Shown: piece by piece, positions 2,040 through 30,293 of the stretch
Position numbering within the stretch: position 1 is the first letter of the stretch
Layout of the letters: every line of letters starts with the position of its first letter
Source of the DNA: Microcella alkalica
GTDB taxonomy: Bacteria; Actinomycetota; Actinomycetes; Actinomycetales; Microbacteriaceae
DNA length: 64,000 nucleotides
Direction: 5' to 3'
Assembly: GCF_014595885.1 (NCBI RefSeq)
Contig: NZ_JABUKC010000001.1
Location: 434,001 to 498,000, forward strand
Made by a program: the position numbers and the translations under genes
Notes under the pieces: generated by a model
Databases searched by the model: none
What the model was told of the DNA's origin: nothing
What the model saw: the letters and a program-made list of their open reading frames with translations, nothing else

Positions 2040-4397
<2,358 letters not shown>

Positions 4398-26473: not shown

Positions 26474-26521
26474 CCACTAGATGTGGTGGGTACTGAATGT
26501 CAGTGCCCCGATATATAGTGG
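26474..26521. promoter_or_regulatory. Pair of NrdR boxes overlapping the nrd promoter
   Basis: Compared with the NrdR consensus acaCwAtATaTwGtgt, CCACTAGATGTGGTGG (26474-26489) and CCCCGATATATAGTGG (26506-26521) match at the conserved positions. They are 32 bp apart start to start, three helical turns, as known for NrdR pairs. TATAGT inside the second box (26514-26519) is a likely -10, so NrdR bound here would block transcription. Confidence 0.8.
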
Positions 26522-26663: not shown

Positions 26664-29141
26664 GTGAGCAGCATCACGGTCGTCAAGCGCGACGGAACCC
26701 GCGAGCCCTACGACGCCAACAAGATCAACCTGGCGATCGAGCACGCGGCCGAGGGCCTCGACCCGAACATCACGTGGGTCACCCAGATCGCGAGCGAGCT
26801 CGAGCTCACGCTCTTCGACGGCATCACCACCCAGCAGCTCGACGAGGCCGTCATCCAGGTCGCGCTGCAGAACATCAAGGATGACCCGGCGTTCGACACC
26901 GTCGCCGCTCGTCTGCTGCTCAAGACCATCTACAAGCGCGTGCTCGGCGACTACTCCTCGGCCGACGAGCTCAAACGCCTGCACCGCGAGCACTTCGCGG
27001 CGTACATCCACCGCGGCGTCAACGAGGTGCTGCTCGACTCGCGGTTCCCGCAGCTGTTCGACCTCGACCGCCTCGCCGCCGCCCTCGAGCCCGCCAACGA
27101 CGAGCTGCTGAAGTACATCGGCGTCGTCACGCTCAACAACCGCTACGGCATCAAGGCCCGCAACGGCGAGCCGCTGGAGGTTCCGCAGTACTTCTGGATG
27201 CGCGTGGCCATGGGCCTGTCGCTCAACGAGGCCGACCCCACCACGCACGCGATCGCCTTCTACGAGAAGATGTCGCGCCTGGAGTACCTCGCCGCCGGCT
27301 CGACGCTCGTCAACGCCGGCACGAGCTACCCGCAGCTGTCGAACTGCTTCGTCATGGAGATGCAGGACGACATCGAGCACATCGCCAAGAGCGTGCGCGA
27401 CGTCATGTGGCTCACGAAGGGCACCGGCGGCATCGGCCTCTCGGTCACGAAGCTGCGCGCCCAGGGCTCGCCCATCCGCTCGAACAACACGACCTCGACC
27501 GGGCCGATCCCGTTCATGCACACGATCGACTCGGTGCTGCGCGCGGTCAGCCGCGGCGGCAAGAAGTTCGGCGCCCTGTGCTTCTACATGGAGAACTGGC
27601 ACATGGACTTCCCGGAGTTCCTGGACCTGCGCCAGAACTCGGGCGACCCGTACCGCCGCACCCGCACCGCCAACACCGCCGTGTGGATCAGCGACGAGTT
27701 CATGAAGCGCGTGCAGAACGACGACGACTGGTACCTCTTCGACCCGCTCGAGGTGAGCGACCTCAACGAGCTCTACGGCAAGGAATTCTCGAAGCGCTAC
27801 GCCGAGTACATTCAGATGGCCGAGCGCGGCGAGATCCGCATGTTCAAGAAGATCGGCGCGCGCGAGCAGTTCAAGCAGATCCTCATCTCGCTGCAGTCCA
27901 CCAGCCACCCGTGGCTGACGTGGAAGGACACGATCAACAACCGCGCCATCAACAACAACACCGGCACGATCCACCTCTCGAACCTCTGCACCGAGATCTG
28001 CCTGCCGCAGGACCGCGACAACATCTCCGTCTGCAACCTGGCCTCGATCAACCTCTCGCGCCACATCGAGAACGGCGTCGTCGACTTCGCGAAGATCGAG
28101 CAGAGCGCCCGCCTGGCGGTTCGCCAGCTCGACAACCTCATCGACATCACCGTCTCGAGCGTCGACGAGGCTGACTTCGCCAACCAGCAGAACCGCGCCA
28201 TCGGCCTCGGCGTCATGGGCTTCACCGACATCGTCGAGAAGCTCGGCTTCTCGTACGACTCGGAGGAGGCCTTCGCGCTCATCGACGAGATCATGGAGCA
28301 CGTCTCGTACGCGGCGATCGACGAGTCGACCGAGCTCGCGAAGGAGCGCGGCTCGTACGCGAACTTCGCCGGCAGCCGCTGGTCGCAGGGCCTCGTGCCG
28401 CTCGACACCATCGACCTCACCGAGGCCGACCGCGGCGTCGAGGTGCAGGTCAACCGCACGAGCCGCCTCGACTGGGATGCCCTGCGCGAGAAGGTCAAGG
28501 GCGGCATGCGCAACGCCACCCTCATGGCGATCGCGCCGACCGCCTCGATCGGCCTCGTCGCGGGCACGACCCCGGGTCTCGACCCGCAGTTCTCGCAGAT
28601 CTTCAGCCGGTCGACGAGCTCGGGCAAGTTCCTCGAGGTGAACCGCAACCTCGTCGCGATCCTGCAGGAGCGCGGCCTGTGGGAGCGCGTGCGCGAGGAC
28701 ATCCTGCGCAGCCAGGGCGACATCCAGGGCATCGCGGCGATCCCGGACGAGATCAAGGCCACCTACAAGACGAGCTTCCAGCTCTCGCCCTACGCCTTCC
28801 TCGAGGTCGCGGCCCGCGCCCAGAAGTGGATCGACCAGGCCATCAGCCGCAACATGTACCTCGAGACGCGCGACGTCGACGAGATGGTCGACATCTACTC
28901 GTCGGCCTGGAAGAAGGGCGTCAAGACGACCTACTACCTGCACATGAAGCCGCGCCACACGGCCGAGCAGTCGACGGTCAAGGTCAACAAGGCCGAGACG
29001 ATCGCCGCCGGTTCGGGTGCGCCCAAGAAGGGCTTCGGCGCTGCCGGCGGCGCCTCGGCCCCCGCGGCCGAGCCCGCCGCGGCCGCCGCTCCCGCGCGGA
29101 AGGGCTTCGGCTTCGGCGGCGTCGCGAAGGCGGGTGAGTAA
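26664..29141 (+). CDS. nrdE: Ribonucleoside-diphosphate reductase large subunit (lacks its C-terminal CxxC tail)
   Basis: An 825-residue class I catalytic subunit. It has an N-terminal ATP-cone (about 1-90), active-site cysteines C228 (SNCF), C442 with E444 (NLCTEI) and C457 (SVCN), and the radical-relay tyrosines Y757-Y758 (TTYYLH). The protein ends in a Gly/Ala-rich linker (KGFGFGGVAKAGE) at TAA 29139-29141, without the redox-active CxxC needed to re-reduce the active site. That motif is found in frame just after the stop, in the 30-codon ORF at 29145-29237. Readthrough, re-initiation, a recent mutation or a sequencing error are possible. NrdR and DnaA-like boxes precede it. Confidence 0.95.
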   Translation: MSSITVVKRDGTREPYDANKINLAIEHAAEGLDPNITWVTQIASELELTLFDGITTQQLDEAVIQVALQNIKDDPAFDTVAARLLLKTIYKRVLGDYSSADELKRLHREHFAAYIHRGVNEVLLDSRFPQLFDLDRLAAALEPANDELLKYIGVVTLNNRYGIKARNGEPLEVPQYFWMRVAMGLSLNEADPTTHAIAFYEKMSRLEYLAAGSTLVNAGTSYPQLSNCFVMEMQDDIEHIAKSVRDVMWLTKGTGGIGLSVTKLRAQGSPIRSNNTTSTGPIPFMHTIDSVLRAVSRGGKKFGALCFYMENWHMDFPEFLDLRQNSGDPYRRTRTANTAVWISDEFMKRVQNDDDWYLFDPLEVSDLNELYGKEFSKRYAEYIQMAERGEIRMFKKIGAREQFKQILISLQSTSHPWLTWKDTINNRAINNNTGTIHLSNLCTEICLPQDRDNISVCNLASINLSRHIENGVVDFAKIEQSARLAVRQLDNLIDITVSSVDEADFANQQNRAIGLGVMGFTDIVEKLGFSYDSEEAFALIDEIMEHVSYAAIDESTELAKERGSYANFAGSRWSQGLVPLDTIDLTEADRGVEVQVNRTSRLDWDALREKVKGGMRNATLMAIAPTASIGLVAGTTPGLDPQFSQIFSRSTSSGKFLEVNRNLVAILQERGLWERVREDILRSQGDIQGIAAIPDEIKATYKTSFQLSPYAFLEVAARAQKWIDQAISRNMYLETRDVDEMVDIYSSAWKKGVKTTYYLHMKPRHTAEQSTVKVNKAETIAAGSGAPKKGFGAAGGASAPAAEPAAAAAPARKGFGFGGVAKAGE

Positions 29142-29144
29142 GCG

Positions 29145-29237
29145 ATGGACCCCTTCGAGACGACGACCGAGACGGTCGGCGGCTACGTCGTGCCGACCGA
29201 CCCGATGGACGACCTGCACTGCGAGAGCTGCCAGTAG
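29145..29237 (+). CDS. 30-residue peptide carrying the NrdE redox-active C-terminal tail
   Basis: ATG 29145 is in the same frame as nrdE and is separated from its TAA only by one GCG codon. The peptide runs MDPFETTTETVGGYVV... and ends MDDLHCESCQ. The H-C-E-S-C-Q ending is the CxxC tail that in class I reductases transfers electrons from thioredoxin to the active-site disulfide. GGGTGAG at about six bases upstream could serve as a ribosome site, and the TAA-GCG-ATG spacing would suit terminational re-initiation. It may be a true separate peptide, the readthrough part of NrdE, or the result of a premature stop. Confidence 0.7.
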   Translation: MDPFETTTETVGGYVVPTDPMDDLHCESCQ

Positions 29238-29309: not shown

Positions 29310-30293
29310 ATGGGAATTCTCGGCACCGGCATCCAGGAGGGCCTGCTCCTCAAGCCCGTCACCTACAAGTGGGCGATGGATCTCTACGACCAGGCCGTGG
29401 CGAACACCTGGTTCCCCAACGAGGTGCAGCTCGGTGAGGACATCGCCGACTTCAAGAAGATGACCGACGAGGAGCGCCACGCGATCACGTTCCTCATGAG
29501 CTACTTCAACCCGAACGAGCTGCTCGTCAACAAGGCGCTCGCGTTCGGCGTCTACCCCTACGTCAAGGCCCCCGAGGCGCACCTCTACCTCGCGAAGCAG
29601 ATGTGGGAGGAGGCCAACCACTGCATGAGCTTCGAGTACGTGCTCGAGACCTTCCCGATCGACCGCGCGGCCGCGTACGACAGCCACGTCGACGTGCCGT
29701 CGATGGCGCGCAAGGAGGAGTTCGAGGTGAAGTTCATCCGCCGCATGACGGAAGACACCCTCGACATCACCACGACCGAGGGCAAGCAGGACTTCATCCG
29801 CAACCTCGTGGCGTACAACGTCATCCTCGAGGGCATCTGGTTCTACTCGGGCTTCATGGTCGCGCTGTCGTTCCGCCAGCGGAACCTGCTGCGCAACTTC
29901 GGCTCGCTCGTCGACTGGATCGTGCGCGACGAGTCGCTACACCTGAAGTTCGGCATCAACCTGATCCTCACGGTGCTGGAGGAGAACCCGGACCTGCAGA
30001 CGCCGGAGTTCGCCGCCGAGATCAAGCAGATGATCCTCGACGCCGTCGAGATGGAGGAGCAGTACAACCGCGACCTCCTGCCCAACGGCATCCTCGGCCT
30101 CAACGCCAACTACATCAACCAGTACGTCAAGTACCTGGCCGACCGTCGCCTGGAGGAGCTCGGCTTCGAGCCCGAGTACAACGTGACCAACCCGGCGAAG
30201 TGGATGGCGACGGCCAACGACACCCTGCAGCTCGTCAACTTCTTCGAGTCGACGAACACCTCCTACGAGGTCAACGCGAAGACCTCGGCGTAG
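29310..30293 (+). CDS. nrdF: Ribonucleoside-diphosphate reductase small subunit, subclass Ic-like
   Basis: A 327-residue R2 protein. Metal ligands by spacing are E70, E101, H104, E174, E208 and H211. The spacings between ligands (31, 3; 34, 3) equal those of E. coli NrdB. The residue four after H104 is F108 where E. coli has the radical tyrosine (Y122), and the first ligand is Glu rather than Asp. Both changes are those of the Chlamydia Mn/Fe subclass Ic enzyme, and WEEANHCMSFEY resembles its EEAVHTHTFLY. The final residues (ESTNTSYEVNAKTSA) include a Tyr suited to radical transfer. It follows nrdE in one operon. Confidence 0.93.
   Translation: MGILGTGIQEGLLLKPVTYKWAMDLYDQAVANTWFPNEVQLGEDIADFKKMTDEERHAITFLMSYFNPNELLVNKALAFGVYPYVKAPEAHLYLAKQMWEEANHCMSFEYVLETFPIDRAAAYDSHVDVPSMARKEEFEVKFIRRMTEDTLDITTTEGKQDFIRNLVAYNVILEGIWFYSGFMVALSFRQRNLLRNFGSLVDWIVRDESLHLKFGINLILTVLEENPDLQTPEFAAEIKQMILDAVEMEEQYNRDLLPNGILGLNANYINQYVKYLADRRLEELGFEPEYNVTNPAKWMATANDTLQLVNFFESTNTSYEVNAKTSA

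Follow-up and report, generated by a model that had tools for sequence, protein, structure and literature searches.

Class I RNRs are generally regarded as recharging in one common way, through a Cys pair borne by the tail of the enzyme itself, and a passage of PMC9669993 states that they "almost exclusively" have this double-Cys motif. The RNR locus in the stretch of DNA analysed here, 64,000 nucleotides of Microcella alkalica (hereafter the window; RefSeq assembly GCF_014595885.1, contig NZ_JABUKC010000001.1, positions 434,001 to 498,000), raises the question of how a class I enzyme is recharged when that pair is missing from its large subunit, because no C-terminal redox Cys pair was present on the NrdA chain in the window or in the split relatives examined. 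Our answer, which sequence comparison makes quite probable, is a three-piece class Ic RNR consisting of NrdA, NrdB and a trans-acting redox mini-protein of ~30 aa that is the former NrdA tail. The features of the locus are collected in Table 1.

Table 1. Features of the RNR locus, in window coordinates.
Feature	Position	Strand	Basis
NrdR-box-like site 1 upstream of nrdA, CCACTAGATGTGGTGG	26474..26489	+	match to NrdR box consensus
NrdR-box-like site 2 upstream of nrdA, CCCCGATATATAGTGG	26506..26521	+	match to NrdR box consensus; begins 32 nt downstream of the start of site 1
nrdA, class I large subunit, 825 aa, GTG start, N-terminal ATP-cone; end ..RKGFGFGGVAKAGE	26664..29141	+	profiles, translation
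C228 codon, catalytic Cys	27345..27347	+	invariant in NrdA alignment
C442 codon, catalytic Cys, thiyl radical Cys	27987..27989	+	invariant in NrdA alignment
C457 codon, catalytic Cys	28032..28034	+	invariant in NrdA alignment
Y757-Y758 codons, radical-transfer dyad	28932..28937	+	invariant in NrdA alignment
GGTGAG, Shine-Dalgarno-like, last two nrdA sense codons, before mini-ORF	29133..29138	+	read from sequence
mini-ORF, 30 aa, MDPFETTTETVGGYVVPTDPMDDLHCESCQ, putative detached NrdA redox tail	29145..29237	+	ORF between nrdA and nrdB
nrdB, R2 subunit, 327 aa, subclass Ic-like	29310..30293	+	translation, alignment, profiles, fold
E70 codon, first metal ligand, Glu not Asp	29517..29519	+	alignment; coordinate computed from residue number
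E101-H104 codons, ligands E101 and H104	29610..29621	+	alignment
F108 codon, replaces radical Tyr	29631..29633	+	invariant in 41/41 NrdB
E174 codon, ligand	29829..29831	+	alignment
W203 codon, Tyr in Chlamydia R2c	29916..29918	+	alignment; at least 90% conserved
E208-H211 codons, ligands E208 and H211	29931..29942	+	alignment

The reading frame of the R2 subunit contained zero internal stops on translation, and its product matched Pfam PF00268 (E 3.3e-76) and the NCBIfam model NF007186 (406 bits, cut-off 237). From residue spacing, the initial annotation had named six metal ligands (E70, E101, H104, E174, E208 and H211), placed Phe108 at the position of the radical Tyr and noted the same Phe and the same Glu as first ligand in Chlamydia R2. 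In an alignment of 41 NrdB sequences, which included the window protein and extended down to 35% identity to it, the six ligands and Phe108 were invariant (41/41), as was Y110, and the seven window residues paired with the AESLV, EEAVHTHTF, MEG and RDETIH stretches of Chlamydia R2, at positions that we take to be E89, E120, H123, F127, E193, E227 and H230 in its numbering. Structure prediction, a check that the initial annotation had proposed, agreed: for the AlphaFold model of NrdB (pLDDT 85.1, pTM 0.84), Foldseek ranks 1–13 were all Chlamydia R2c chains (TM ~0.86, 38% identity), and 6y2n followed at rank 14. A sequence search likewise gave Chlamydia R2c (E 9e-74) and 6y2n (E 1e-68) as the nearest solved proteins, with the next only at E 9e-37. 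Judged solely by the alignment to Chlamydia R2c, no Tyr would be expected within 5 Å of the NrdB metals.

According to a passage of PMC8463856, the pairing of Phe with Glu is the mark of subclass Ic, Tyr/Asp that of Ia and Ib, and Tyr/Glu that of Id. In the window genome (G000, completeness 99.99), searches gave a single R2, a single RNR large subunit and 0 matches to NrdI (PF07972). The Phe/Glu pair, the full set of six ligands, Chlamydia R2c as the nearest among solved structures and the lack of a detected NrdI support the subclass Ic-like reading that had been put forward, so that NrdB is supported as class Ic by sequence and, among solved structures, by fold. Such an R2 is in itself of an ordinary, already known kind: Tropheryma whipplei appears in print as class Ic, in a listing within PMC4009431.

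From the Phe/Glu pair only, a Mn/Fe metal-centred oxidant is predicted in NrdB. Residue 203 is Trp in at least 90% of the 41 aligned NrdB, and at this place, five residues before a ligand Glu, Chlamydia R2c has a Tyr, presumably Y222. Tyr222 of Chlamydia R2c is a relay in cofactor activation, and given W203 the electron relay to the NrdB cofactor may differ from that in Chlamydia. The R2c of Chlamydia trachomatis thus resembles the window protein in its six ligands, in Phe at the radical position, in Glu as first ligand and in fold, but differs in sequence, in the Tyr facing Trp203 and in its partner, as the window NrdA is without a redox tail. These differences, together with the fact that sequence does not dictate metal identity, would also suit a distinct actinobacterial subclass in which the Phe/Glu scaffold holds Fe/Fe or Mn/Mn instead of Mn/Fe, and a section of PMC8463856 names as unexplored an environmental actinobacterial cluster, among class Ia-like clusters, to which the window NrdB might belong. 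We consider another metal content unlikely, because the first-shell ligands and the Phe/Glu pair are the same as in Ic and Chlamydia R2c is the closest of the solved proteins; Mn/Fe is kept below as the predicted cofactor.

The large subunit has retained its catalytic core. NrdA matched PF02867 (E 6e-166), best fitted class I models (NF005101, 1639 bits, NCBIfam) and is adjoined by the R2 gene. C228, C442, C457, Y757 and Y758 were invariant in the 26 NrdA rows of the alignment, and we take their E. coli equivalents to be C225, C439, C462, Y730 and Y731, respectively. The last ~50 residues (28992-29138) form a low-complexity linker with RKGFG/RRGFG motifs. Despite the lost tail, an RGFG-type motif near the NrdA end was found in 79/79 named loci (the best 80 of 563 and hence close relatives, less L096, which lacks nrdA), and this linker may act as a dock for the mini-protein.

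The Cys pair that NrdA is without is carried by the C-terminus, DPMDDLHCESCQ, of the mini-ORF, which in the window begins 3 nt beyond the TAA of nrdA (the gap being GCG) and lies in the same frame as nrdA. Among the 79 named loci that hold the nrdA end, a mini-ORF of 21–47 aa (median 27) precedes nrdB in 77, the exceptions being L051 and L102. Its start lies within the stop region of nrdA (offset −4 or −1) in 57/77 and has a Shine-Dalgarno-like sequence in 70/77, where starts were picked by a loose rule favouring ATG and such a sequence. Outside the positions fixed by the search motif, the Y, V and P preceding DPM and the S of CxSC were invariant in 77/77 mini-ORFs; a deviant copy with CEGCQ occurs in G067. 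NCBIfam and Pfam scans of two of the mini-proteins gave no match. Across 18 codons of the conserved end, raw pN/pS came to 0.34 among linked copies (68 distinct), 0.14 among unlinked ones (22) and 0.25 among viral ones (111), against 1.4–3.0 in the other two frames; the motif used to gather the sequences itself fixes some of the residues concerned, which lowers pN somewhat. By this measure the mini-ORF copies are under purifying selection. Sequencing error or a pseudogene as the source of the split was rejected, since the split is kept in 77/79 named loci and the copies appear to be under such selection.

The window locus, with a mini-ORF in the nrdA frame and one stop codon away, would also fit a tail that is rejoined to NrdA by stop-codon readthrough or programmed frameshifting, leaving NrdA functionally unsplit. 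Among the relatives, however, the mini-ORF occupies all three frames relative to nrdA (frame 2/0/1 in 68/6/3 of 77), the nrdA stop codon varies (TGA/TAA/TAG in 53/20/6 of 79) and the mini-ORF mostly has its own start with a Shine-Dalgarno-like sequence, at the 70/77 given by the loose rule above. Moreover, in four genomes every copy detected is elsewhere: G123, G978 (L102, Gryllotalpicola ginsengisoli), G979 (L051) and G015 carry an unlinked but no adjacent copy, and within 400 nt after their nrdA no CxxC was found in any frame. The frames seen among the relatives and these unlinked copies led us to reject a fusion by readthrough or frameshifting, to which we give hardly any credence.

Unlinked copies are not confined to these four genomes. 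The window genome itself has one of 27 aa, MDNDNETVGGYAVPVDPMDLLQCESCQ, at C3:278817-278900 (far end computed from length). In G015, a 0.93 Mb genome of the same family, presumably Tropheryma-like to judge from its size and family, with the NrdB motif of the window and a tail-less NrdA, the tail copy stands beside a murB-like gene (name read from sequence) and behind NrdR-like boxes. Of 29 unlinked occurrences, six of which repeat the same place and one of which (L194) appears to duplicate L154, 21 have a MaoC-like dehydratase gene (name likewise read from sequence) no more than 1.5 kb away. Around the unlinked gene, a promoter/terminator scan found a single promoter-like site on the same strand as the gene, where it overlaps box 2, and a sole terminator-like site on the opposite strand; a long GC hairpin without a T run lies downstream (fold z −4.8). 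A further copy with a longer N-terminus lies on a second contig of G123 (C2:9255-9293, L160); it is unlinked and without NrdR-like boxes, and is possibly on a mobile element.

An NrdR gene is present in the window genome, and paired sites were scored against what we take to be the NrdR box consensus, with single-base shuffles as control and nrdA starts located by motif. Before nrdA (24 loci), the pairs scored a mean of 23.4 of 32 against 15.6 for shuffled sequence (median z 7.0), with a spacing of 32 in the 14 rows listed. Before the unlinked gene (31 entries, repeats included), the score was 22.2 against 16.2 (median z 5.7), with a spacing of mostly 33 among the rows listed. No NrdR-like boxes were seen before the adjacent tail (14.6 against 15.0 shuffled, 16 regions), before viral copies (16.5 against 16.6, 113 regions) or before nrdA outside the family (13.2 against 14.2, ten loci).

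Comparison with other Actinomycetes points to where the tail came from. In NrdAB loci of the same clade outside Microbacteriaceae (L113-L130), NrdB is 82–88% identical, the tail motif is the same and most linkers are of the RGFG type, but the tail is fused to NrdA in 18/18, ending for example in ..CPVDPMERLQCESCQ or ..ACPVDPMERLQCESCQ, where the split-off tail of Microbacteriaceae ends in ..YxVPVDPMDDLQCESCQ. A quick tree of the NrdA core, with tail columns removed, was built from 52 rows (35 split, 14 of the 18 fused and 3 far fused) and has long end branches for L133, L124 and L145; in it, a single branch with SH-aLRT 100 set all 35 split rows apart, which requires 1 change. By this tree, the tail split had one origin, in Microbacteriaceae. 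In 20 fused-clade genomes, a relaxed tail pattern matched a single time in 17, always no further than 200 nt from nrdB, and not at all in G329, G288 and G623, whose fused tails escape the pattern; no second tail copy was seen in the 20, although a diverged stand-alone copy could escape the pattern too.

Within Microbacteriaceae, the tail follows the type of R2. The 199 genomes comprised 91 with a close NrdB (at least 82% identity), 101 with a distant R2 only and 7 with neither, and because the close NrdB recurs in those 91, it is not a product of chance or sequencing error. The distant R2s, for which "NrdF-like" is our own label, had a best E of 8.9e-16 and 23–27% identity among the matches listed. 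The tail pattern was found in 91/91 close-NrdB genomes, with at least two matches in 81 of them, against 0/101 with a distant R2 only and 2/7 without either (G113 and G172); the association with R2 type (Fisher p 4e-57) is only indicative, as species are not independent. The reversed pattern, used as a control, gave 0 matches in every genome listed, and among 346 genomes across the phylum the tail pattern matched only in the window's own. This distribution suggests that an RNR was replaced during the history of the family, leaving either the Ic-like NrdB or the distant NrdF-like R2.

These observations allow us to propose how the three pieces would work together. The oxidised cofactor of NrdB, predicted to be Mn/Fe, would generate a thiyl radical at NrdA C442, and substrate reduction would leave a disulfide between C228 and C457 in NrdA. 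The free mini-protein would then deliver its CxxC to the C228/C457 site and take over the disulfide, and a cellular redoxin would recharge it. For this system, the metal, the translation of the mini-protein, its docking and the redox exchange in trans are what we infer. When NrdA was modelled with AlphaFold as read through into the tail, the tail was disordered (pLDDT ~30) and no docking was seen.

Action between chains is normal chemistry for such a tail. As a section of PMC3618301 describes, in class I RNR the tail of a neighbouring R1 takes over the active-site disulfide, and in the yeast enzyme an R1 tail reaches into the active site of the subunit next to it; the yeast C-terminus is covalently part of R1, however, and the window tail is separate. 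A closer parallel in architecture is NrdJa/NrdJb of Pseudomonas aeruginosa, where, according to a part of PMC4520616, thiol-disulfide exchange is carried out in trans by a polypeptide of its own. Both systems have the dithiol-exchange part on its own polypeptide, in the window as known from genes alone, but NrdJa/NrdJb is a class II (cobalamin) enzyme with an NrdJb of 229 residues encoded in the same operon, whereas the window RNR is of class I and its exchange part has ~30 residues and is also found unlinked and on phages and plasmids. The NrdJ work bears on a different account as well, in which a redoxin re-reduces the NrdA of this clade directly and the mini-protein would be either a leftover or a regulator, not a shuttle: DTT drives NrdJa alone in vitro, and small thiols can reduce RNR active sites (PMC4520616, in part). 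We regard direct reduction as quite improbable, because all 91 sampled close-NrdB genomes have at least one copy and 81 at least two, the CxxC end is conserved at positions that the motif left free, and a leftover would show neither purifying selection nor NrdR-like boxes.

Copies of the putative shuttle also occur on phages and plasmids. In IMG/VR, at least 120 stretches carry a tail copy; 119 of the 120 hold a mini-ORF of 20–45 aa (101 distinct peptides), and in the remaining one the mini-ORF is cut by the contig end. Some viral copies have an extra third Cys (ACP..). The clade NrdB is also present in four IMG/VR stretches (L255, L259, L277 and L311) and NrdA in one (L259). In that stretch (L259:9665-13979), the mini-gene is followed by a tail-less nrdA and then nrdB, and around its catalytic region the nrdA carries several hundred inserted bases, perhaps an intein. 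A viral stretch of different character is L251:2200-2401, in which the tail motif ends a 66-aa protein, perhaps by coincidence or perhaps as another carrier. Among named phages, Clavibacter CN1A and CMP1, Pontimonas phiPsal1 and Pan2 (cyanobacterial host as recorded) have a copy, with weak tblastn matches (E 0.01–0.2, short query) and the ends DPMDELICEGCQ, DPMDEFQCDSCQ, DPMDLLQCTSCQ and DPADLVSCESCQ, respectively. The copies in phiPsal1 (CTSCQ) and Pan2 (DPADLV) are deviant, and by sequence that of Pan2 is the least certain of the four. In CN1A, phiPsal1 and CMP1 (L316, L317 and L318, near position 4001), the mini-gene stands directly after the holin/endolysin region. As a check for lysis cassettes, the ORF upstream of the viral copy was scanned and had at least one predicted membrane segment in 56/111.

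Nineteen plasmid records have a copy (15 Clavibacter, 3 Leifsonia and 1 Gryllotalpicola; E 1e-4 to 0.2), and in pCM2 the tail copy ends a 53-aa hypothetical protein. Genes as short as the mini-gene are readily missed in annotation, and in three of the four named phages no gene is annotated at the match. On a Leifsonia plasmid (L321:3983-4084), a 33-aa mini-protein is misannotated as 'ribonucleotide-diphosphate reductase subunit beta'.

The detached tail is the new and unusual part of this RNR, well supported at the level of sequence, with a function that we infer. No report of a detached class I RNR tail was found in the open-licence PMC literature, which is not proof of absence, and the available portions of PMC9669993 and PMC9531940 make no mention of one. 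If our proposal is true, tethering of the tail would be dispensable in class I RNR, and the Microbacteriaceae enzyme would provide a natural system in which the shuttle step can be studied alone. The phage and plasmid copies suggest that the supply of shuttle is worth controlling. We lean slightly towards a picture in which the Microbacteriaceae tail is a free, diffusible shuttle of ~25–30 residues with its own NrdR-controlled gene, whose supply can limit RNR turnover, so that phages and plasmids would carry it as a tiny auxiliary metabolic gene, which would raise the dNTP output of the host's enzyme through the shuttle alone.
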